Assembly: GCA_018436595.1 (NCBI GenBank)
Contig: JAHDLC010000001.1
Location: forward strand, 62,001 to 126,000
Source: Synergistaceae bacterium
GTDB lineage: Bacteria; Synergistota; Synergistia; Synergistales; Aminobacteriaceae
Direction of reading: 5' to 3'
DNA length: 64,000 nucleotides
In this document: one piece after another, positions 23,838 to 34,699 of the stretch
Layout of the letters: every line of letters begins with the position of its first letter
Position numbering within the stretch: position 1 is the first letter of the stretch
Program-made: the position numbers and the translations under genes
The notes under the pieces: generated by a model
Databases searched by the model: none
What the model saw: the letters and a program-made list of their open reading frames with translations, nothing else
Told to the model about the DNA's origin: nothing

Positions 23838-26558
23838 TCAGGAGGAAGAGGCGGAATCCGATGCCCGGGCCATGGCGAGGAGAATATCGGCGACTGTCGG
23901 GTCGAGAACCGTGCCCCTCAGCTTTCCGAGCTGTTCCAGGACTTCTTCTCCGGTCATTCTGCCCTCTTCCAGGGACTCCATAAAATCGTCGAAGACTTCT
24001 CCGGCGCGCAGAATCCTTGCCATGGGGGGGATTTCCTCCCCTCCGATCCCCCTGGGGTATCCCGATCCGTCCCAGTTCTCGTGGTGGCTGAGGATTTCTT
24101 CCGCCAGGTCCAAGGTGTCCTCGAACAGGTTCAGGATCCTGAAACCTGCCACCGGATGCTGGGCCATCTCCCTGTCCAGGTACTGATCCATGGGCTGGAG
24201 TTCATTTCCCTTGTCCAGAATATCCTCGCCGAGGATGATCTTCCCGATATCATGAAGATACCCCGCTTCCGTCAGCTTCCGTATTTCCGTCTCCGACATC
24301 TTCATGGAGCGGCCTATCTCTCTGCACATCCGGCTCATGTTCTCCGAGTGCTTCTTTTCCCGGGGGCTTTTTTCGTGAAGGGTCTCCATGATGGTACCGA
24401 TCATCTCTGAACCGACCGCTTTGCGGTTGAGGCTCTTCTGCTTGTACATGGCCTCCTCGGCGTCCTTCACGGTCTCTTCGGCGGGGTCGCCGGGTACAGC
24501 CTTCACCGCGCAGCCCACGGCAATGCTTGCCTTGATGGCATTGACGCGGACCTTCGAGAACTCTTCCCTGATCCTGACGATGATTTTTTCGGCAGTACCT
24601 GCCGTTGTGCGGGGAAGAATGATGGTGAACTCGTCTCCTCCCACCCTGGAGATGATGTCGCCCTCCCTGCAGCTCTTTCTCAGGGCTTCCGCCGCCTTTT
24701 TCAGCAGTTCGTCCCCGGCTGCGTGGCCGAAGACGTCGTTCGTCAGCTTCAGGCCGTTCAGATCCCCGAAGATAATCGTGAGGGGCAGGTTTTCCTCCCT
24801 GTTCAGCCTCTTCAGTTCCTCTTCGAAGTACGCCCTGTTGTACAGGCCGGTGAGGCTGTCGTGGTAGGTCAGGTAATTGATGTGCGCCTGGCTTTTCCTT
24901 CGCTCGGTGTTGTCCGTGAAGGTAATCACGGCACCGACGATTTCCCCGTTCCGGAACTGGGGGAACGACGAGTATGCCACGTCCAGGGGCGTACCGCCGG
25001 ATGTCCAGAACACCTCGTCATCCACGTGGAAACCTCTTCCAGTCCGGAGTGTGGCGTGGATTTTACATTCCTCGAGCTCCATGAGCCTGCCGTTCCTGTA
25101 AGCGTAATGGATCAGGAAATGCATATTCCTGCCGGCCAGATCCTCAAAACGTCCGAACCCAAGCATGCGCAGGCAGCTTGCGTTTGCGAAGGTGCAGCTC
25201 CCGTCCCTGTCGATGCCGTATATGCCTTCCGCGGCGGAATCCAGGATCAGCTCCAGGTGTTCCCTGTTGTGGGCCAGCTCCCGGTTTCGCTCCCCGAGTT
25301 CAGCGGTCCTCTCTTTCACGATTTCCTCCAGGGAGGAAAACAGGGCCTGCAGCCTTTCGGCCATGGCGTTGAGGGCCGTGGCCACCCGGCCGATTTCGTC
25401 GTTTCTCCGCACCTCCGCCCTCCGTGAGAGGTCCCCCGATGAGAGGCGTTCAGCCGTCAGGACGAGATCTTCCATCGGCCTCATCAGGACGTTTGCAGCC
25501 TTCGCGCATAGAATCGCCGCCAGTGTCACGGCAAGGACCGCCAGCAGAAGGGAGAACCTCATGTTCCGGAAAATCCCCGCCGTAAAGGTGCTTTCGGGAA
25601 GGGCCAAAAGAATGATCCAGTCGATGCCTTCCCTGCGGTATTCATTAAAATGGACGATATAGCGGTCCTGCCCGTCGCTCACCCTGACGATTTTCTCCCC
25701 TGCGGTTTCGTGAATCTTCATCGCCTGCTGAAGTACCGCGTTTTTCCCGTCGGCCAGGGTCAGCCTGCGGAAGGTGCCGTCAGGACGGATTTCGAAATTC
25801 GCCATGCCCAGGGAATTTCCGATAAGGGCCCCCGTCTTTCTCTCCACGATTGCCGCCGTGCCGTTCCCTTCCCCGGCGATTTCCTCCAGGGAGGAGTTGA
25901 TTCGGGACAGGGTGACGTGGGCGCCGAGGACCCCCCGCAGTTTCCCGTTGCTTTCCCTGACCGGAGCGGCGGCGGAGACGGCAAGGTCTGCCATGATGAA
26001 GTGTCTGTAGACGGGGGAAAAAACAGTTTTTCCAAGGTCTTTGGCGGTCCTGTACCAGTCCCTGGTCCTCGGGTCGAAGGGTCCGGCCTTCACAGCGAGC
26101 TTACCGGCGGTGGAATGTTCCCCCAGGGTGAAATACCACGAAGCACCTCCGGTGGACCGGTCGTTCCTCATGATCTCGATTCCGCCGGCGCTGTTTCTGC
26201 GGGCGCCGTAATACTCGCCGTCCTCTGAACCGAAACTGAAGCTGTACAGCCCCTCGCTGTGCGTCTGGAGGACGGAAGTGAAAAAACGCTCCCGCTGGGT
26301 TTCATTCCCCATGTCGATGACGCCCTTTTCGATCTGGTCCCTGTACACCTCCACGAGATGGGCGGGGGTATTCATGTGTTCACCGATCCTGCCGGATATG
26401 CGCCCGTTCAGCTCATCGGCCAGGAATGCCGCGGTCCCGGCCGTTGACGACAGCCACCCCGAGAAGATGAAATATCCCACGACTGTGCAGGAGGACACGA
26501 TAAGAACGATGAAAAGAAGCACGCCGATGCTTTTGATGGAGAGACTTTTTAAGTTCAT
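23838..26558 (-). CDS. Cache-HAMP-PAS-GGDEF-HD-GYP hybrid c-di-GMP enzyme
   Basis: A 906-residue membrane sensor with, in order, TM1 (about 8-32), a large extracytoplasmic dCache domain, TM2 (about 320-345), HAMP (to about 400), PAS (about 425-545; GIYGIDRDGSCTFANASC), GGDEF (about 550-715) and HD-GYP (about 730-890). The cyclase motif is intact (RVGGDEFTIILPR), and so are the phosphodiesterase residues (LHDIGKIILG, HHENWDGSGYPRGIGGEEIP). It may therefore make and degrade c-di-GMP, or use one domain as sensor. ATG 26558 has GAGAGGTGG upstream and gives a proper TM1; the longer open frame adds 107 residues of non-membrane, shadow-like sequence. The protein 0.6 kb upstream (27164-29893) is a paralogue with identical order. 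Confidence 0.9.
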   Translation of the reverse strand: MNLKSLSIKSIGVLLFIVLIVSSCTVVGYFIFSGWLSSTAGTAAFLADELNGRISGRIGEHMNTPAHLVEVYRDQIEKGVIDMGNETQRERFFTSVLQTHSEGLYSFSFGSEDGEYYGARRNSAGGIEIMRNDRSTGGASWYFTLGEHSTAGKLAVKAGPFDPRTRDWYRTAKDLGKTVFSPVYRHFIMADLAVSAAAPVRESNGKLRGVLGAHVTLSRINSSLEEIAGEGNGTAAIVERKTGALIGNSLGMANFEIRPDGTFRRLTLADGKNAVLQQAMKIHETAGEKIVRVSDGQDRYIVHFNEYRREGIDWIILLALPESTFTAGIFRNMRFSLLLAVLAVTLAAILCAKAANVLMRPMEDLVLTAERLSSGDLSRRAEVRRNDEIGRVATALNAMAERLQALFSSLEEIVKERTAELGERNRELAHNREHLELILDSAAEGIYGIDRDGSCTFANASCLRMLGFGRFEDLAGRNMHFLIHYAYRNGRLMELEECKIHATLRTGRGFHVDDEVFWTSGGTPLDVAYSSFPQFRNGEIVGAVITFTDNTERRKSQAHINYLTYHDSLTGLYNRAYFEEELKRLNREENLPLTIIFGDLNGLKLTNDVFGHAAGDELLKKAAEALRKSCREGDIISRVGGDEFTIILPRTTAGTAEKIIVRIREEFSKVRVNAIKASIAVGCAVKAVPGDPAEETVKDAEEAMYKQKSLNRKAVGSEMIGTIMETLHEKSPREKKHSENMSRMCREIGRSMKMSETEIRKLTEAGYLHDIGKIILGEDILDKGNELQPMDQYLDREMAQHPVAGFRILNLFEDTLDLAEEILSHHENWDGSGYPRGIGGEEIPPMARILRAGEVFDDFMESLEEGRMTGEEVLEQLGKLRGTVLDPTVADILLAMARASDSASSS

Positions 26559-26843
26559 TTCCACCTCTCGTTTTCTCCGGAACAAGGAAGACTGAAGGTA
26601 CGGGAAACAACCGCACAAGCGCGGGAACCCTTCTGTTTCGTCCTGCACGGAAAGAGAGCGAGGCTCATCCGTTCTTTGCCCCACTGATGTACTGAAAACT
26701 GATTTTACAGCCTTCAGGGTATTTTGTCTCTGTTTTGTCGTTTTTCCTTCATTGTTCTTGTTTTTCTGCGGAACCTCTTGCGCCGGGAGGAAGAGTGGGG
26801 TAGGGTATCGGAAGGCAAGCCCCCGGAAGGAGATGTCATATCC

Positions 26844-27170
26844 GTGCAGACCCTTGTCGATTTTCTCGCCTTCAGGCATTTCATCAGCCCGGCGGTTCTG
26901 CCCGTCTGTTATGTCCTGGGAGCGGCCGGAATTCCCTTTGGGGTTTGGCTGGCGGTACAGCGGATGGTGCCCTTCCTGGGAAAACAGGCGGCGGGGCCGT
27001 ACCGTTCAGGGGCGGAGGACGCTCCCGCCCCCAGGTACAGGGGACGAATCCTCTTCTGGTGTACCCTCCTGTTCGTGGTTGCGGAAATCCTGTGGCGTAT
27101 TCTGTTCGAATACCTGGCTGCTTTCCTTCAGATGCGTGATGCCCTTCTGATCCTCGCGAACATTCAGTAA
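26844..27170 (+). CDS. DUF4282 small membrane protein
   Basis: A 108-residue protein with two or three hydrophobic segments. It begins VQTLVDFLAFRHFISPAVLPV, the typical DUF4282 opening (aromatic-phenylalanine-Ile-Thr/Ser-Pro before the first helix), and has a second helix around WCTLLFVVAEILWRI. GTG 26844 is chosen because AAGGAG is 11 nt upstream; an open frame from TTG 26724 adds an unlikely N-terminus. Its end overlaps the convergent cyclase gene by 7 nt. Function is unknown; it sits alone on the plus strand between two paralogous c-di-GMP genes. Confidence 0.65.
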   Translation: MQTLVDFLAFRHFISPAVLPVCYVLGAAGIPFGVWLAVQRMVPFLGKQAAGPYRSGAEDAPAPRYRGRILFWCTLLFVVAEILWRILFEYLAAFLQMRDALLILANIQ

Positions 27171-29893
27171 GGGCCGGAAGATCGGGAATGCAGGCCCTGC
27201 CCTTCCGTTGAATTCCGGGCTGGAGCTATGGAAGAAGGGGCTCCCGCTGATACCCGGACGGCCAGGGCTTCCGCGATTTTCGGGTCCAGGGCGGTTCCCG
27301 ACTGTTCGAGCAGCTCCGGGACGGCCCGCCGCTCCCATCCGGGGGTGTTCCCGGCCTGGAGCCGCAGGCGGTCCCAGCTCTCGGCGACACGGAGGATTCT
27401 TGCGATCAGAGGGATGTTCTGCCCTCCGATTCCGTTGGGAACCCCTGTCCCGTCCCAGTGTTCGTGATGACAGAAAACAGCCTCGGCGTACTCCAGCGTG
27501 GCGTCGAAGAGGTTCAGTATCCGGTATCCCGCTGCAGGGTGGAGCAGCAGGCCTTTTTTATTCTGCTCCTCTTCGACCAGGCCGTCATTCCTGTTGAGGG
27601 TTTCACTGTCCAGGACGACCTTTCCGATATCGTGCAGGTACCCTGCCGTCTTCAGTTTCTCGATCTCCGCCGGGGTCATTCCGAGGCCTTCACCGATCAG
27701 GCCGCAGATCTCCCGTACCGATTCGGCATGGGATTTTTCTCCGGGGCATTTCTCATGAAGGGTTTCCATGATCGTGTCGGCCATTTCCGAGTCGATGTCC
27801 TTCCTGTACAGGGTCTTTTCCCTGTACATGGCCTCTTCGGCGGACTGAACGACGCTGAGGATGTCCTGCCCGGGGTCGGTCTTCGTTCCGTATCCCATGG
27901 AGATGCTGCCCCGTATGGCGATGATCTTCCTGTCGGCGAAGTCGCTCTTGATTCTCCGGATGATCCTCCCTGCCGCGTCTTCTGCCGTATTTGTCATGAT
28001 GACGGCGAATTCGTCTCCGCCGAGCCTGCAAACAATGTCTTTCCCACGGCAGGAGCTTTTCAGCAGCTCGGCGGCTGTTTTGAGAAGATTGTCTCCGGCG
28101 GCGTGGCCGAAAACGTCGTTCGTCAGCTTCAGGCCGTTGATGTCGCCGAAGATGACCGTAATGGGCAGGTTTTCCTCGGTGTCAGCTTCTTTCAGGGTGT
28201 TTTCAAAGAAGGCCCTGTTGTGGAGCCCCGTCAGGGTGTCGTGGGTGCTGAGGAAGTCGATTTTGGCCCGGCTCCTTCTCCGCTCCGAATTGTCCGTGAA
28301 GGTGACCACCGCCCCGACGATTTTTCCTTCCGAAAACTGGGGGTATGCGTTGTATTCAACCTCCACCGCCGTTCCGTCCGTCCGCCAGAACACCTCGTTG
28401 TCCGCATGGACTCTCTGCCCCGAGGACATGGCGAGGCATATCCTGCACCGGGACTGGTCAAGGGGTGTGCCGTCCTCCAGGGAGTGGTGGATGAGCGAAT
28501 GGATTTCCTTTCCGACCAGGCTGTCCGTCGATTGAAACCCCAGGATTTTCAGGAAGCTCCTGTTGCAGAAAGTGCACTTTCCATGCCGGTCCACGCCGTA
28601 GACGGCCTCTCCCGCGGAATCGAGAAGGAGCTGGAGCTTCTTTTCCGCCTCCATGGATTGCATGGTCTGCTCCTGCAGTTCCCGGTTCGCCCGCTGAAGC
28701 TGGGCCGTCCGTTCCTCCACGATTTTCTCCAGGTTGATGAACAGGGTGGAGACGGTGTCGGCCATGTCGTTGAATGACCTGGCGATGAGCCCGATCTCGT
28801 CGTTCCTGACGACAGGCGCCCGGGACGAGAGTTTCCCCCCGGCGAATTCTTCCGCCGACCTGACCAGGAGGGAGACCGGGTTGAGCAGCTTCTTCGCCAC
28901 CATCATGTAGACGGTGATGGAAAGGATCTGGGAGAGCAGGAGGAGCAGGCCGGAGAAGCGGGCGCTTTCCTTTATGGACCCGGCAAGCAGGTTTTCCGGC
29001 AGGGCGGTGAGGACCACGAGGCCAAGCCCTTCCTGGAGATAGTCGGAGAAGTGCAGGAAAAATTTCCCTTCAGAGGTTTCCGAAAGGAAATTTTTCTCCC
29101 CCGTGGACCGGTATTGATCGAGTGCTTTCCCGATGATATCCCCGTGTTTTCCTTCCGGGGAAGTTGAAAGAAGGGTCATGGAATCCTTTTCGAAAAGGGC
29201 TGCGAAGGCTCTCCCGTGACGGACCGCCTGTTCCATTTGCCCGTCGAGGACCGAAAAGGGAATCAGGGTTTCGGAGACTCCGAGGGCTGTGCCGTCTCTG
29301 CCGTAGACGGGGTGGACTGCCGAAAGGGCCGGTACTGCTGGAGATGATTGCCCGTGCAGGGCGGAAATGGAGGGCTCCCGTTTTTTCAGGATGTCCTGAA
29401 ACCACGGGACATTTCTTCCGCCGTCGTTTTCAAGGGGCTCCACAGGAAGACCGGATCCGTCGGCATGCCAGGCGAAACCGCCCCCCTTTTTTGCGGGTCG
29501 GATAAACTCGAGGCTTCCTCCGGAATTTCTTCGGGTGCCGTAGCGGATACCATCCGGGGTTTCAAAAAAAACCCCGGAGATTTCTTCCCTGTGCACCTCC
29601 ATGATCCCCCGGAAAAACCGCTCCCTCTCTTCGACATCCGCCAGGTCGATAAAGCCGTTCCCGAGCGCTGCGCTGCAGGCAGCGCTGATTCCCGCCGGGA
29701 TGGCGAGAAATTCCCGCACTTTCAGAACAGCCAGTTCGTTCATGCCCTCGTTCATTGCCTTCACGGCATTCCGCGCCCCGGTGAATCCCCTGGAAAAGGA
29801 GATGGAGCTGATGACGACGCCTGTGGCAAGAGAAAGGGTGATGAAGACAAGGATGAAGGAATTCTTGATGGACAGGTGTCTGTCCGGGCTCAT
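27164..29893 (-). CDS. Cache-HAMP-PAS-GGDEF-HD-GYP hybrid c-di-GMP enzyme, paralogue
   Basis: A 909-residue paralogue of the protein at 23838-26558 with the same order: TM1 (about 10-33), extracytoplasmic Cache domain, TM2 (about 310-335), HAMP (to about 395), PAS (about 420-540; AVYGVDRHGKCTFCNRSF), GGDEF with RLGGDEFAVIMTN, and HD-GYP with LHDIGKVVLD and HHEHWDGTGVPNGIGG. In the last motif GYP reads GVP, a change in the name-giving tripeptide. The Cache regions of the two paralogues differ most, so they probably read different ligands. GGGGAGCGG precedes ATG 29893. A perfect inverted repeat lies about 100 nt upstream (29992-30009). Confidence 0.9.
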   Translation of the reverse strand: MSPDRHLSIKNSFILVFITLSLATGVVISSISFSRGFTGARNAVKAMNEGMNELAVLKVREFLAIPAGISAACSAALGNGFIDLADVEERERFFRGIMEVHREEISGVFFETPDGIRYGTRRNSGGSLEFIRPAKKGGGFAWHADGSGLPVEPLENDGGRNVPWFQDILKKREPSISALHGQSSPAVPALSAVHPVYGRDGTALGVSETLIPFSVLDGQMEQAVRHGRAFAALFEKDSMTLLSTSPEGKHGDIIGKALDQYRSTGEKNFLSETSEGKFFLHFSDYLQEGLGLVVLTALPENLLAGSIKESARFSGLLLLLSQILSITVYMMVAKKLLNPVSLLVRSAEEFAGGKLSSRAPVVRNDEIGLIARSFNDMADTVSTLFINLEKIVEERTAQLQRANRELQEQTMQSMEAEKKLQLLLDSAGEAVYGVDRHGKCTFCNRSFLKILGFQSTDSLVGKEIHSLIHHSLEDGTPLDQSRCRICLAMSSGQRVHADNEVFWRTDGTAVEVEYNAYPQFSEGKIVGAVVTFTDNSERRRSRAKIDFLSTHDTLTGLHNRAFFENTLKEADTEENLPITVIFGDINGLKLTNDVFGHAAGDNLLKTAAELLKSSCRGKDIVCRLGGDEFAVIMTNTAEDAAGRIIRRIKSDFADRKIIAIRGSISMGYGTKTDPGQDILSVVQSAEEAMYREKTLYRKDIDSEMADTIMETLHEKCPGEKSHAESVREICGLIGEGLGMTPAEIEKLKTAGYLHDIGKVVLDSETLNRNDGLVEEEQNKKGLLLHPAAGYRILNLFDATLEYAEAVFCHHEHWDGTGVPNGIGGQNIPLIARILRVAESWDRLRLQAGNTPGWERRAVPELLEQSGTALDPKIAEALAVRVSAGAPSSIAPARNSTEGQGLHSRSSGPY

Positions 29894-30009: not shown

Positions 30010-30086
30010 GGAAAATAGTATTTCAATGTTTGCTCATTATAATTCATGCCTCCTTATTCCGCCACTTTTCGTCATATTGTTCACGG

Positions 30087-30127
30087 AAAAAGAGGGCGAA
30101 GATTTTTGTCTTCGCCCTCTTTTTTTG
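30087..30127 (-). terminator. Strong hairpin terminator of the Spy-like gene
   Basis: AGAGGGCGAAGA and TCTTCGCCCTCT form a perfect 12-bp stem, with A/T runs on both sides so that it works in both directions. It lies 27 nt after the minus-strand gene ending at 30154; no plus-strand gene ends here. Confidence 0.85.
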
Positions 30128-30153: not shown

Positions 30154-30732
30154 CTATTTCTGCAGCTTTTCGATCAGGTCAAGGCGCTGCTGGAATCTCC
30201 ATCCGGAAAGTTCGTTCCGCAGTTCCACGCGCTTCTTGTACAGATCTTCGATCTTTGTGCGGTCGATGGGCTTCTTCCCCATTTCGTTCCTCATCTCGAG
30301 GGAGAGTTTCGCCATCTCAGTCTGCTTGTCCTTGATTTCCTGGGGAATTTCCACCGAAGCCCACATTCCCATCCGGCCGCTGTTTCCGAAGTTTCCCCTG
30401 CGTCCCATCATCTGCCGGCTGCCTGCAGGGTCCGTGTTTCCGAAATTCCCCATCCGGCCCATCATCTGCCGGCTGCCTGCGGGGCAATTGTTCCCGAAAT
30501 TCCCCCTGCGTCCCATCATCTGCCTGTTCCCCAAGGGGCCGGCCATCCCGGGGTTCATCATTCCCTGTCCGGGGGCTGCCTGGCACCAGGTCTGGGCGTT
30601 CTGCTGGTTCATCATGCCCTGCTGCCCGACCATGGCCTTGCCACCCCGTCCTCCCCAGGCAAGGGCGCTGCCCGCCGTAAGAAGCACTGCGGCACACACG
30701 ACCGCCGCTATCGTTCCGTTCATTGTTTTCAT
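30154..30732 (-). CDS. Exported Met/Gly-rich Spy/ZraP-like periplasmic protein
   Basis: A 192-residue exported protein: signal peptide (MKTMNGTIAAVVCAAVLLTAGSALA), a Gly/Met-rich middle (residues 27-124) and a helical C-terminus (130-192) with EIKDKQTEMAKLSLEMRNE and YKKRVELRNELS, like the helical hairpin of Spy/CpxP/ZraP chaperones. The middle holds three 18-residue repeats starting at residues 69, 87 and 105, each built on RQMMGR-x-GNFGN. Met-rich stretches of this type often bind Cu(I). It is divergent from a two-component system whose sensor also has a Met-rich periplasmic segment, suggesting an envelope-stress or metal response. A terminator follows. Spy-like assignment rests on layout rather than close identity. 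Confidence 0.7.
   Translation of the reverse strand: MKTMNGTIAAVVCAAVLLTAGSALAWGGRGGKAMVGQQGMMNQQNAQTWCQAAPGQGMMNPGMAGPLGNRQMMGRRGNFGNNCPAGSRQMMGRMGNFGNTDPAGSRQMMGRRGNFGNSGRMGMWASVEIPQEIKDKQTEMAKLSLEMRNEMGKKPIDRTKIEDLYKKRVELRNELSGWRFQQRLDLIEKLQK
30367..30528 (-). repeat. Three in-frame 54-bp tandem repeats
   Basis: Three consecutive 54-bp units encode the 18-residue repeats (RQMMGR-x-GNFGN core) of the Spy-like protein. Units differ at a few positions, mainly in the last four codons. Being in frame, they can change copy number without breaking the gene. Confidence 0.8.
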
Positions 30733-30816
30733 CTCAAATCCCGCCTTTCAGCTTGTGATGGGTAAAGGATACTCTCCCCGGGGGAAGGCCGCATGGTCGG
30801 ATCTGCCGGTTTCCCT

Positions 30817-30834
30817 ATTGTAAGAAATGACAAT
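30817..30834. promoter_or_regulatory. Inverted repeat in the divergent Spy-like / two-component intergenic region
   Basis: ATTGT-N8-ACAAT is a perfect 5-bp inverted repeat. A TACAAT -10 box for the response regulator gene lies at 30855-30860 but has no good -35; the repeat covers the -35 zone. This is the layout of an activator-dependent promoter and a plausible site for the adjacent NarL-type regulator. The sites are seen; the role is inferred. Confidence 0.4.
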
Positions 30835-30918
30835 TCCGCTCCGGTTCGTCATGCTACAATCGGCCCATGGGATCGCTTCCCCGGACAGGGAAAGCGCTGT
30901 CGGGAAGGAGGAAGGAAC

Positions 30919-31569
30919 ATGATACGGATTCTGCTTGCCGATGATCACCCTCTCACGCGGTCGGGACTCGCCTCCTGGCTCGAGAAGGAGGAGGGGGTGG
31001 AGCTGGCGGCGCTCGCCTCCGACGGGGAGTCCGCCTGGCAGTCCATCCTTGAGCTTCGGCCGGACCTGGCCCTGCTGGACATCGAGATGCCGGGCGCGGG
31101 CGGCATCGACATCGCCGCCAGGATACGGAAAAACGGCCTGAAGACCAACGTACTGATGCTCACGGCCTACAGCGCCCATCAGTATGTCATGGCTTCTCTC
31201 CGGGCAGGGGCGAAGGGCTTCATCCTGAAGTCAGCCCCCCTGGAGGAACTGCGGAAGGCGGTATTCGACACGGCCCGGGGAGTCTTCTACCTCGACCCCT
31301 CCGTGTCACTCACCGGAGCCGACGAGCCGGGGGAAGAACTTTCCCCGAGGGAGAGGGAGGTACTCATCCTTGCCGGGCAGGGGCTGCCCGCTTCCGAAGT
31401 GGCGTCTCTCCTCTCCATCACCGAGCGGACGGTGGCTGCCCACCTGACGTCTATTTACGGAAAGCTCGGCGCCCGGAACAAGACGGAAGCCATCCTGCTG
31501 GCGCTGAAGAAGGGAATCGTGCTGCTGGACGAACTCCGGTTCCTGGATGGAGAAAGGGGGACGCCATGA
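30919..31569 (+). CDS. NarL/FixJ-family response regulator
   Basis: A 216-residue response regulator. The receiver (residues 1-120) has the acidic pair Asp8-Asp9, the phospho-acceptor Asp54 in LALLDIEMPG, the Thr in MLTAYS and the Lys in ILKSA. A LuxR-type helix-turn-helix (about 148-210) contains LSPREREVLILAGQGLPASEVA and ERTVAAHLTSIYGKL. ATG 30919 has AAGGAGGAAGG upstream. The stop overlaps the sensor kinase start (ATGA), so both are made together. Likely targets are its own promoter and the divergent Spy-like gene. Confidence 0.92.
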   Translation: MIRILLADDHPLTRSGLASWLEKEEGVELAALASDGESAWQSILELRPDLALLDIEMPGAGGIDIAARIRKNGLKTNVLMLTAYSAHQYVMASLRAGAKGFILKSAPLEELRKAVFDTARGVFYLDPSVSLTGADEPGEELSPREREVLILAGQGLPASEVASLLSITERTVAAHLTSIYGKLGARNKTEAILLALKKGIVLLDELRFLDGERGTP

Positions 31570-32975
31570 GAAAGCATCTTCTTCTTGCGCTCATGATTGT
31601 CGTCACTCTCCTCACTGCGGCAGGATTCCTTTTTTCTCTGTATGCCTTCCGTGCCCAGGAGGAGGCCATGGACTCCATGATGCGCTCCTACGTCGTGGAC
31701 CTTGCGGAAAACTTCGCCGGAGGGGCGGCCATGGGGAGGGGCATGCCCCAAAGGCACAGGCCCATGGGCCAGATGCGCTTCAGAATGCTTTCCACGGACG
31801 CTTCGCTGAGAAACGGAGGGGCGGGAGGCGTCCTTCTCATAGGACAGGACGGGCGGGTCGCCGCGGCATCGCCCGGGGCGGAGAAACTGCTTTTCCTGCG
31901 AACCCGGGCGGAATTCTCCGATGAACCTGAAAAAGTGCGGGGCGACGACGGAAATGATTATTACGTGGCAAAGCGGGGTCTGGAAGACGGAAGCTATATT
32001 CTCGCGGCAGTGTCGAGAACGGTGCTGATCGCCCCCCTGGCCGGAATCTGGAGAACCTGGATTCTCACCGCCATGGCCACTTCCGCCGCAATTTTTCTGG
32101 GAATGATCCTCCTCTGGAGGTACCTGGCCGTGCCGCTCCGGAGGATAGCGGAACGTATCCGGGGGATGCGGTGGGGAAAAGACCACCCTCCGGCACTGTA
32201 CAGCGGTCCGCTGTATGAGCTTGAATCCCTGTCAGCCGTTATCGGTACCCTTGCGGAAGAGGCCTTCGCCAAGGAAGAGCTCAAAAAGCGGTACGTGACG
32301 GACCTGGTCCAGGCGGAGGAGAATACCCGGAGACACCTGGCCCGGGAGCTCCACGACGGGCCCCTCCAGTCGTCCGTGGCGGCCATCAAGCGCATCCAGC
32401 TCGCGAAGGAGGCCCTTCCCCCGCAGGCCGGGGAACTCCGACGCCATCTTGACACCGCCGAGGACGTCGTCCAGACGGCGGCGAGAGAGATCAGGGATTA
32501 CTGCGACGAACTTTCCCCGTCGTGGATCCGGCTCGGTCTCGCCAGCGCCATGCAGGAGAACGCCGACAGGCTTTCCCGCGCCTACGAGGGCCTGGTGATC
32601 GACGTGGATGTGGACGAGGATCTTGACGTTCTTTCCGAAGAAAGCAGCCTGGCCCTGGTCCGCATTTTCCAGGAAGCTGTATCGAACTCGGCGCGGCACG
32701 GAGGGGCCAGTTCCGTCAGGGCGGCGCTGAAAAAAGAAGGCGATGCCGTCCATTTCACCATTGAAGACGACGGCGGCGGATTCGACGCAGGACCTGCGTC
32801 CGGGACGGATTTCGAACTGCTCCGCACCACGGGGCATAGGGGGCTCGCCAACATGAACGAACGGGTGCGGCTCCTCGGCGGCACCATGAAACTTGAATCC
32901 TCTCCCGGGCAGGGCTGCCGGATCGACATCGTCTTTCCCTTGGCGCGGGAGGAAAGTACCGCCGCCCCTGCATGA
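31566..32975 (+). CDS. Membrane sensor histidine kinase (HisKA_3 family)
   Basis: A 469-residue partner of the NarL-type regulator. TM1 (about 7-28) and TM2 (about 163-187) enclose a small periplasmic domain with a Met/Arg-rich start ([20 protein letters not shown], residues 55-74). The dimerisation helix carries the phospho-acceptor His263 in [16 protein letters not shown]. The HATPase_c domain has the N-box ([15 protein letters not shown]), DDGGGFD, and [16 protein letters not shown]. The Met-rich sensor segment echoes the Met-rich divergent protein, which favours a metal or envelope signal; this is inference. Confidence 0.9.
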
Positions 32976-33016: not shown

Positions 33017-33541
33017 ATGCTGTCAGCTGTAAAAGCGGATATAACGACCCTTCAGGTGGATGCCATCGTCAACGCAGCCAACAATTCCCTGCTCGGCGGC
33101 GGGGGAGTGGACGGGGCAATACACCGTGCCGCGGGGCCGGATCTGCTGAATGAATGCAGAAAGCTCGGCGGCTGCGCCACCGGCGACGCCAGAATCACGA
33201 AAGGCTGGAGGCTCCCGGCGAAGTACGTCATCCACACCGTGGGCCCCGTGTGGCACGGAGGCGGCCGGGGAGAGGCGGAGCTCCTGGCATCGTGCTACAG
33301 GCGCTCCCTGGAGCTGGCATCAGGGGTAGGGGCGAGGTCCATCGCCTTCCCCTCCATCAGCACCGGCGTCTACGGCTACCCGACCGAACAGGCCGCCCGG
33401 ATCGCCGTGTCCACAGTGCGGGAGGAACTGGAAAAATATCCCGGCATTGAAGAAGTCGTTTTCTGCTGCTTCTCCGAAGGGGACCGTGCGGTCTACGATA
33501 AACTGCTGTCGCAGCTTTCGCCATTTATGGAGGGGGTATGA
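33017..33541 (+). CDS. Macrodomain protein (YmdB-like ADP-ribose/O-acetyl-ADP-ribose hydrolase)
   Basis: A 174-residue single macrodomain. Key segments are [27 protein letters not shown] (Asn pair and glycine-rich loop binding the ADP-ribose), VIHTVGPVW, and [10 protein letters not shown], the phosphate loop. This matches MacroD/YmdB proteins, which deacetylate O-acetyl-ADP-ribose or remove ADP-ribose from proteins or nucleic acids. ATG 33017 has GGAAGGTGAT upstream; the frame is open 15 codons further without an SD. The stop overlaps the deformylase-like start, so the two are translationally coupled. Confidence 0.88.
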
Positions 33542-34095
33542 TGAAAAGACCGGTCCTGATACTCGGCGATCCACTTCTGCGGCGGAAATGCGCCCCTGTG
33601 GAGGATTTTTCCGATCCCCTGCTGAACGAGGAGATGGAGGATCTCAGGGAGGCCCTGGAACTGTTCCGGAAGGAACACGGTTTCGGCCGGGGGATCGCCG
33701 CGCCCCAGATAGGCATCCCGAAGCGGCTCATTGCCCTAAACCTTGGGAAGGGATCCTTCGTCATAGCGAACCCGGAGGTCATCTACAGGAGCCCGGAAAC
33801 GTTCACCCTCTGGGATGACTGCATGTCCTTCCCGGACCTGATGGTGCGGGTCCGCCGGAACCGGTCCCTCAGTATACGGTACCGGGACGAAAAGGGCGCC
33901 CCGCAGGAATGGACGGACATCGGGATTGCCGAATCGGAGCTGCTGCAGCACGAAATGGATCACCTGGACGGAGTGCTTGCCGTTGACAGGGCCATCGGAA
34001 CGGGGGATATTGTCTACATGGCGGAGTACCGGAAGCACAGGGAACTCTACGACGGCCGGTGCGACTATTCCATTGTCCCCACCATAGGGGGATGA
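33538..34095 (+). CDS. def: Peptide deformylase-like metalloenzyme
   Basis: A 185-residue protein of the peptide deformylase family. Motif 1 is [12 protein letters not shown] (residues 48-59); motif 3 is QHEMDHLDG with metal ligands His138 and His142 and catalytic Glu139. Motif 2, normally EGCLS, reads DDCMS, keeping the metal ligand Cys95. All catalytic residues remain, but the substrate-binding context is changed, so this may be a second, divergent deformylase rather than the housekeeping one. It is coupled to the macrodomain gene by an overlapping start (ATG 33538 or 33541). Confidence 0.82.
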
Positions 34096-34144
34096 ACCTT
34101 TCCCCGGGGAACAGCCGTCCTGACCCGCGAAAGGAGAGAGTGAA

Positions 34145-34699
34145 ATGAAGTCGACTGACGAACTGAGAAACGAGCACAGGGGCATCGAGGTCATGCTGGA
34201 CATCCTCGACGGTGCGGCGGAGAAGCTGAGCGGCGGAGCGCCCGCCGACTTCGGCCATCTTGACGGGATGATGGAGTTCCTTTCCGTCTTCGCCGACACG
34301 TGTCATCACGGCAAGGAGGAGGATTTCCTCTTTCCGGGCCTTGAAGCCGCGGGTATCCCCAACGAGGGGGGGCCCATCGGCGTGATGCTCGGCGAACACC
34401 GGAAAGGGCGGGAGCACATCGCCGGCATGAAGCGGGGCATCACCGCCATGAAGGCAGGCGACAGGGGAGGAGTCTCCATGTTCGCGGAGAATGCCGCCGG
34501 GTACACGGCCCTGCTGCGGCAGCACATCCAGAAGGAGGACAACGTCCTCTTCGTCATGGCCGAACAGCGCCTCGATGCCGCCAAGGACGAAGAACTCTTC
34601 CGGGAGTTTGAAAAACTTGAGGAGGAGCGGATCGGGAAGGGAAAGCACGATGAATTCCACGCTCTTCTGGACCGCCTGCAGAAGATCTACACACGCTGA
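34145..34699 (+). CDS. Hemerythrin-like (HHE) protein
   Basis: A 184-residue four-helix protein with the non-haem di-iron ligands of the HHE family: NEHRGIE (His near residue 10), CHHGKEEDFLFP (His and Glu, about 54-60), GEHRKGREH (about 83-91) and LRQHIQKEDNVLF (about 121-131). Such proteins bind O2 or NO or store iron; YtfE/RIC relatives repair iron-sulfur clusters. In an anaerobe, oxygen or NO sensing or scavenging is likely. GAAAGGAGAG precedes ATG 34145. It is 49 nt after the deformylase-like gene. Confidence 0.85.
   Translation: MKSTDELRNEHRGIEVMLDILDGAAEKLSGGAPADFGHLDGMMEFLSVFADTCHHGKEEDFLFPGLEAAGIPNEGGPIGVMLGEHRKGREHIAGMKRGITAMKAGDRGGVSMFAENAAGYTALLRQHIQKEDNVLFVMAEQRLDAAKDEELFREFEKLEEERIGKGKHDEFHALLDRLQKIYTR

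Follow-up and report, generated by a model that had tools for sequence, protein, structure and literature searches.

A NarL-type two-component pair beside a methionine-rich exported protein in Synergistaceae: a probable envelope-stress circuit of the ZraPSR/CpxPAR kind

What is controlled by a two-component system whose nearest neighbor is a divergent gene for a small, exported, methionine-rich protein? The question is raised by a locus within a 64-kb stretch of DNA (hereafter the window) from contig C10 of the 3.2-Mb genome (G000) of a Synergistaceae bacterium. Here, the gene that we label MET, encoding a Met/Gly/Arg-rich exported protein of 192 aa (30154..30732, minus strand), lies divergent from the genes for a NarL/LuxR-type response regulator (30919..31569, plus strand) and a HisKA_3-type membrane sensor kinase (31566..32975, plus strand), whose open reading frames (ORFs) overlap by 4 nt. 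A sequence-only reading of this DNA had listed the three genes, a palindrome and a set of 54-bp repeats, all of which ORF calling, Pfam and Tandem Repeats Finder (TRF) recovered where they had been placed. Genes of the window and of the compared loci were called with a rough composition-based caller, and genome searches covered 99 genomes, own included. Both the receiver (Response_reg, 3.7e-27) and the GerE/LuxR helix-turn-helix (2.2e-15) of the regulator exceed their Pfam cut-offs, which defines it as NarL/FixJ-type; HisKA_3 (7.9e-10) and HATPase_c (3.7e-16) likewise exceed theirs in the kinase, placing it in the HisKA_3 type, while the NCBIfam models MctS, UhpB, LiaS and NarX match it below cut-off. 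We consider it probable that this pair runs a private envelope-stress circuit of the ZraPSR/CpxPAR kind, with MET as its target.

A conserved palindrome, the proposed operator, and the regulator clade that accompanies it

Homolog searches revealed a MET family member in 64 of the 99 genomes (E <= 0.001). Nine of these are close orthologs from three genera (G000, G001, G002, G011, G020, G026, G034, G038 and G041), with identities of 52-86%, measured along the full protein or along its C-terminal portion. Seven of the nine genomes have MET and the regulator gene in divergent orientation; in G011 and G026, the pair is on another contig than MET, both have other neighbors, and the palindrome is retained at MET. 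Indeed, this imperfect palindrome, ATTGTAAGAAATGACAAT (30817..30834), which we propose as the operator, is kept in all nine close orthologs. The sequence TTGTNANNNNTTACA starts 61 nt (62 in G026) before the −10-like block of MET in every one of them, G011 and G026 included. Between the palindrome and the GTATCCT block (GTATTCT in G038), which carries the inferred −10-like TATCCT of MET (30767..30772, minus strand), lies an ACCATG block near the −35 position (30792..30797, minus strand) that is identical in 9/9, as is the Shine-Dalgarno-like GAAAGGCGGG at the ribosome site (30740..30749, minus strand). On the other side, the distance from the palindrome start to the regulator start codon varies between 90 and 143 nt in the seven linked genomes. 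With spacing constant to MET and variable to the regulator, the fixed phase is therefore with MET. Arithmetic from the −10-like elements puts the palindrome centre ~65 nt before the inferred MET start site in the window, and, in G000-G002, ~41.5 nt ahead of the start site inferred for the regulator operon, the putative −10-like element of the latter being TACAAT (30855..30860, plus strand).

It is this position-specific conservation in 9/9 close orthologs that raises the palindrome above chance. Its symmetry (6 of 9 pairs match) is unremarkable alone, and a 15-nt pattern derived from it, with one mismatch allowed, matches the window twice, that is, at one site on both strands, with 0.88 matches expected by chance. 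Across the nine genomes, the TTGTNANNNNTTACA pattern yielded 12 matches, namely the nine MET operators (one per genome) and three others, two within ORFs and one apparently intergenic. As the reversed control pattern gives 10 matches, the three additional sites are at chance level, and the regulon is thus probably just the MET locus. Symmetry or match number alone was rejected as proof of an operator on these same controls. Among 20 other family members, searched over 260 upstream bases each, the palindrome was found at this position in none, and L015 has a loosely similar sequence elsewhere. In G020 (L006), the promoter block GGGGCAGGGTATCCTGTACTC is tandemly duplicated upstream of MET, and the palindrome keeps its 61 nt to the upstream copy.

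The regulators track the operator. A tree of 25 rows groups the nine regulators in a single clade (support 100/99), with the unlinked proteins of G011 and G026 nested inside; G037, whose N-terminal part at a contig end does not match, was left out, and the G019 regulator lies beyond a contig end. The recognition helix reads RTVAAHLTSIY in the window, and alignment of 26 regulators evidenced RTVAAHLTS in 9/9 proteins from MET genomes and in 0/17 others, which carry RTVQAHLAS (three HtrA-linked regulators), RTVQTHLAS (13 core paralogs) or RTVQAHLTS (G012). Absence of the pair from related genomes had been named beforehand as an outcome that would refute a circuit; MET and the pair were found in nine genomes. 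The congeners G003 and G004 have neither: no MET ortholog was found there and their closest kinase matches reach only ~40% identity, so MET and the pair are missing together.

MET and its kinship with ZraP and CpxP

The C-terminal residues 128-192 of MET (30157..30351, minus strand) make up a conserved domain (alignment A1) that AlphaFold2 (AF2) predicts as a helical hairpin, with helices at 131-151 and 158-191. This is the part that resembles ZraP. When a profile of 16 family members was compared with 57 single proteins, the decoys being window proteins and a few E. coli proteins only, ZraP came top (84%) and CpxP second (27%), the next best reaching 8%; ZraP, CpxP and Spy of E. coli, aligned together, scored 40% against the MET profile. 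Many MET homologs match PF13801 (Metal_resist/ZraP) weakly, at model positions about 59-121. Seven of the 16 aligned members do so at E <= 0.1 (best 1.3e-4), the window's own MET being absent among the matches listed, and one of the 16 matches a CpxP-family NCBIfam model (2.3e-5). The predicted hairpin superimposes on a chain of the ZraP decamer (3lay) with Z 8.4 and a root-mean-square deviation (rmsd) of 4.6 over 74 aligned residues, tied with designed and unrelated hairpins, and with a Foldseek E of 1.3. A sequence search of the PDB with MET or its profile returned nothing significant, 3lay appearing at E 8.3 over the signal/linker region and not the helices. LTxxQ is a motif of the Spy/CpxP family and, on reading of the sequence, is absent from MET. 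Collagen-like, adhesin-like and other weak Pfam and NCBIfam matches of MET alone were rejected as low-complexity artefacts of its Gly/Met composition. This weak, concordant evidence points to the helical C-terminus as probably a remote ZraP/CpxP relative, not a filed member of either family. Of the Spy/ZraP-like product foreseen in the sequence-only reading, the ZraP half is thereby retained in the form of this remote relationship, with no curated cut-off reached, and Spy itself finds hardly any support.

The remainder of the protein is built very differently. A signal peptide (residues 1-25, ending in SALA; 30658..30732, minus strand) was read from the sequence, a hydrophobic N-terminus being common to 16/16 aligned family members. 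It is followed by a Met/Gly/Arg/Asn/Gln-rich linker (about residues 26-124; 30361..30657, minus strand) that is predicted to be disordered, with a predicted local distance difference test (pLDDT) score below 50 for residues 27-118, and that holds 15 Met, no His and a single acidic residue. Overall, Met accounts for 20 of 192 residues (10.4%), compared with a mean of 2.8% (standard deviation 1.5) in the 44 other window proteins of at least 100 aa, the maximum among these being 9.3% in a 118-aa ORF at the window end. Met content ranges from 9.3 to 12.3% in the nine close orthologs versus 3.1-8.7% in 20 others among the best-scoring matches, a comparison that takes no account of kinship; high Met content thus accompanies the NarL-type circuit. 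His is absent here and numbers 0-2 across the nine, and MET has three Cys, one of them inside the signal peptide. Across the nine orthologs, linkers are 52 to 107 residues long and contain 0 to 5 Met doublets.

Within the linker, three in-frame 54-bp (18-aa) repeats with QMMGRRGNFGN-like units (30381..30542, minus strand) were delimited by TRF and repeat comparison. TRF reports an array at 30381-30524 (2.7 copies, 84% matches, score 211), one of only two in 64 kb, and the other two copies are 78-81% identical to the reference copy. At the protein level, related 18-aa units were recognized by eye in G001 (three) and G002 (two), and TRF found no 54-bp DNA array in either genome. The repeats are therefore real, but the proposal that they serve to vary the number of Met motifs fares poorly, since the copies are only ~80% identical and these two MET-bearing congeners have no array. 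The differences look like slow divergence between species, with no strain-level switch indicated and weak evidence for active variation. The linker of a distant family member, L021 (G027:C95), carries separate tandem repeats with units of ~36 aa, as judged by eye, so repeat growth in the MET linker arose more than once; its N-terminus is off the contig, and it was left out of the start-codon and Met-content comparisons.

The proposed circuit, its signal and its rivals

In the envelope-stress circuit that we favor, the PAS/Cache-like periplasmic domain of the kinase would sense envelope stress and phosphorylate the NarL-type regulator, which would bind the 18-bp palindrome, activate divergent MET from ~65 bp upstream of its inferred start site and, where the pair adjoins MET, probably also activate its own operon. 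MET would be secreted, its ZraP/CpxP-like hairpin would serve as a chaperone in the periplasm, a feedback adaptor or both, and the Met-rich tail would bind Cu(I)/Ag(I) or take up oxidants. The feedback role is drawn by analogy, because zraP/zraSR and cpxP/cpxRA are divergent in E. coli and CpxP is a negative regulator of CpxRA.

The sequence-only reading had suggested soft metal ions or envelope damage as the signal. Orthologous pairs that stand beside a protease gene speak indirectly for an envelope role. The NarL-type pair occurs without an adjacent MET in five genomes (G029, G037, G021, G019 and G012), and in the first three an HtrA-like protease gene follows on the same strand; Pfam Trypsin_2 and PDZ domains were found in the proteins of G037 and G021, both of those tested. 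Judging from gene order, a related pair thus seems to have become associated with an HtrA gene in one lineage and with MET in a different one. An OmpR-type kinase is also present in G029, G037 and G019, and in G029 a MET-like gene lies beside it.

Several observations weigh against the envelope-stress circuit. In G019 and G012, the pair is followed by other genes, with no HtrA gene. MET stays under every Pfam and NCBIfam cut-off, and the curated cut-off of PF13801 (29.2 bits) is reached in 0/99 genomes, whereas some weak match to this model turns up in 83/99, mostly to other proteins, among the matches listed. Spy scored 1.1% in the profile control, and helical hairpins fit many unrelated structures equally well. 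A sigma-70 consensus scan called neither inferred −10 element as a promoter, and the 12 TTGTNANNNNTTACA matches are hardly above the 10 of the reversed control, so that only their positions argue for the operator. Finally, in G011 and G026 the pair's own promoter is without the palindrome. The closed local circuit announced from sequence alone is accordingly well supported by comparison as regards the conserved operator, the regulator clade and the recognition helix, but its self-regulation is not general, because of these two genomes.

With respect to what the kinase perceives, AF2 models its extracytoplasmic part (31641..32057, plus strand) as a PAS/Cache-like sheet preceded by a long helix (mean pLDDT 70), a predicted fold that matches many Cache and PAS domains with Z of about 7-10. 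Both proteins of the system had been described as Met-rich. This holds for MET, but the enrichment is only modest in the sensor, whose periplasmic segment has 8 Met in 134 residues versus 8 in 335 in the rest of the kinase, and much of it comes down to a few conserved Met that are also found in kinases without an adjacent MET. Alignment A2 compared 11 clade sensors (five MET-linked, G011, three HtrA-linked, G019 and G012) with 10 core paralogs, leaving out the partial kinases of G020, G026 and G041; another sensor alignment kept partial sequences of these three genomes and left out those of G041 C398, G034 C192 and G038 C27. Of the candidate residues Met35, Met38, Met39, Met70 and Met74, numbers 38, 39 and 74 are Met in 11/11 clade sensors and 35 in 10/11 (A2). 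No core paralog has Met at 38 or 39, nine have Met35 and one (G065) has Met at 74, and Met35 and Met74 were dropped as peculiarities of the clade for that reason. Sensor Met enrichment was also rejected as a mark of MET-linked kinases, since the HtrA-linked kinases share it. More widely, kinase matches at E <= 1e-20 occur in 92/99 genomes, mostly at 33-41% identity; the full-length distant kinases examined are accompanied by NarL-type regulators that group in a clade apart, and one such pair is in the own genome. In a named genome collection, the kinase had matches at five loci, four in Synergistaceae metagenome assemblies and one in an Anaerolineales assembly (32% identity).

Among more specific explanations, the one that survives best reads the locus as a general envelope-misfolding circuit, in which misfolded protein is the signal, MET a chaperone or adaptor and the Met-rich linker an incidental low-complexity spacer. 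The linkage of sister pairs to HtrA, the variable linker length (52 to 107 residues) and the lower Met content of the 20 more distant family members all fit, but the high Met content kept in 9/9 close orthologs does not, and we regard this explanation as possible, though the odds are against it.

The two remaining proposals for the signal give methionine a purpose. Zinc is an unlikely ligand or signal for MET, since the protein is without His and has three Cys, of which one belongs to the signal peptide; Cu(I)/Ag(I) or oxidation of methionine is a better fit. In a Cu(I)/Ag(I) circuit, sensor Met residues would bind the soft metal and MET would buffer it. In 8/9 orthologs, the linker combines Met doublets with few or no His, and Met38, Met39 and Met74 are conserved in the sensor clade, the first two in 0/10 core paralogs. 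PMC4335983 describes a Met-rich periplasmic protein, CopM, that is encoded with the CopRS pair and binds Cu(I). The silver-bound sensor domain of CusS is among the structural matches of the kinase model (Z 8.0, rmsd 4.8, 115 aligned), but it is tied with many unrelated Cache/PAS domains; the sensor Met residues are equally conserved in pairs without MET, and no metal transporter was recognized among the few genes read beside the pair. On balance, we hold a soft-metal signal to be doubtful.

The same applies to a methionine-oxidation circuit, in which an oxidant would be the signal, the linker a regenerable oxidant sink, the sensor Met pair the reader of oxidation and an exported selenocysteine methionine sulfoxide reductase (MsrA) the enzyme repairing the pool; we deem this rather unlikely as well. 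In its favor, MET has many Met and no His, and an MsrA match (PF01625) with one in-frame TGA occurs in 7/9 genomes. In the three that were read, from G000 (C36:62835-63242), G011 and G034, the TGA takes the expected place of the catalytic Cys (G-stop-FWGP) and the protein begins like a signal peptide; because of these two features, an exported selenocysteine MsrA is likely. In E. coli, Spy is a target of Met oxidation, has an N-terminal Met hotspot and is repaired by MsrPQ (PMC12503329), and such repair applies to both Spy and CusF (PMC12503329, PMC9302797). Conversely, a TGA lies inside the MsrA match in 24/99 genomes, including 17/90 others scattered over the order; it may just follow phylogeny and is weakened as a marker of the MET clade; no MsrA match was found in G026 and G041 at E <= 1e-8, and the pattern search of the nine genomes found no palindrome near MsrA. 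Synergistaceae are known as anaerobes, and the host should be one. A composite of these ideas, a methionine-based redox circuit in which the NarL-type pair would read oxidation or soft metal via Met38/39/74, a ZraP-like chaperone with a Met-doublet tail would be an expendable, repairable pool kept reduced by the exported selenocysteine MsrA, and the NarL-type pair would have replaced an OmpR-type pair in this Synergistaceae branch, appears improbable as a whole. That another regulator binds the palindrome and the pair is a chance neighbor is very improbable: in 2/9 genomes the pair lies away from MET and has no palindrome at its own promoter, but these two, G011 and G026, have kept a regulator that belongs to this clade and has an identical recognition helix.

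Known systems and the exchange of regulators

The envelope-stress circuit proposed here belongs to a kind already known. As in E. coli ZraP-ZraSR, the gene for a small exported protein is divergent from its own two-component pair, and the helical domain of MET is remotely similar to ZraP. The direct targets of ZraR were zraP, zraSR and mgtA (PMC7657598), which makes it a regulator with few direct targets, as we propose for this one. Unlike ZraR, a sigma54-dependent activator (PMC7657598), the regulator here is NarL-type, with a HisKA_3-type kinase, and its Pfam matches are the receiver and GerE, with no sigma54-activator domain. Furthermore, the kinase gene comes first in zraSR and second here, and E. 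coli ZraP has a C-terminal Gly/Met/His tail, whereas MET is free of His and has its long Met-rich linker on the N-terminal side. The divergent periplasmic accessory protein and the regulator-then-kinase order are shared with CpxP-CpxRA, as is the association with an HtrA-type protease, found here in the sister pairs; degP is under Cpx control. CpxR, however, is OmpR-type, and CpxP matches the MET profile less well than ZraP does. RcsB, which is NarL-type, acts at spy. Spy (BaeSR/CpxAR) is likewise a stress chaperone of the periplasm, whose N-terminal region contains Met doublets (PMC12503329), but differs in its marginal score in the profile control and in the LTxxQ motif that MET lacks. Pairs of the LiaSR/NarXL type share the domain class of the pair here, and we know of none that controls an adjacent ZraP/CpxP-like gene. 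The literature listings that we screened contained no study of a ZraP-like gene next to a NarL-type pair, nor of such a circuit in Synergistetes.

In other Synergistaceae, the same target gene family stands near a pair of a different regulator superfamily. An OmpR-type kinase (at least 49% identical to that of G015) occurs in 31/99 genomes; 27 of these also contain a MET-like gene, no more than 3 kb from the kinase in 24. The G015 regulator is OmpR-type by Pfam (Trans_reg_C), those of the other genomes being judged by eye, and some MET-like promoters beside OmpR-type pairs show, also by eye, TTCATATTCTC-like sequences instead of the palindrome. At this identity threshold, the kinase was found in 0/9 MET/NarL-type genomes; in several genomes, G000 among them, the search scored 16 of the first-look candidates. 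The contrast with 31/90 other genomes is not convincing alone (Fisher P 0.054), and that among genomes with a family member (0/9 versus 27/55) gives P 0.008, uncorrected for kinship. Because the MET-like gene lies near an OmpR-type kinase in 24 other genomes, its regulator has probably been exchanged between the OmpR and NarL types, as far as gene content can tell.

Around the locus, a strong stem-loop with a perfect 16-bp inverted repeat (30084..30127) is the probable MET terminator; a terminator scan assigns it to the plus strand, and on the MET strand the stem ends, by reading, with five T. As it lies directly after MET, the gene is probably monocistronic. Downstream of the kinase (33017-34699) lie macro-domain, deformylase and hemerythrin genes, in an order shared with G002 and with G001, which has an extra gene between kinase and macro; G034 and G038 have other genes. 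Two large adjoining proteins of similar sequence are encoded at 23838-26879 and 27164-29893, the second with HAMP, PAS, GGDEF and HD_5 (Pfam). Elsewhere in G000 (C43:32077-32682, L125), an exported protein in a 283-aa open frame, with two weak PF13801 matches, is divergent from an apparent OmpR-type regulator and is perhaps part of a second, separate CpxP/Spy-like system. No viral relatives were found, and Rfam had no match within the window.

What is new is thus that the pair is NarL-type and has a conserved operator of its own, in a place taken by an OmpR-type pair in related genera. The locus appears to be a natural example of a single family of stress proteins passed between unrelated regulator superfamilies, OmpR-type and NarL-type, while still beside a two-component pair. 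The defined operator and the accompanying change in the recognition helix make this rewiring directly testable with small parts. If the methionine reading were true, the locus would further offer a clean system for asking the purpose of Met-rich periplasmic tails. Either way, the ZraP/CpxP theme would be extended to a little-studied phylum.

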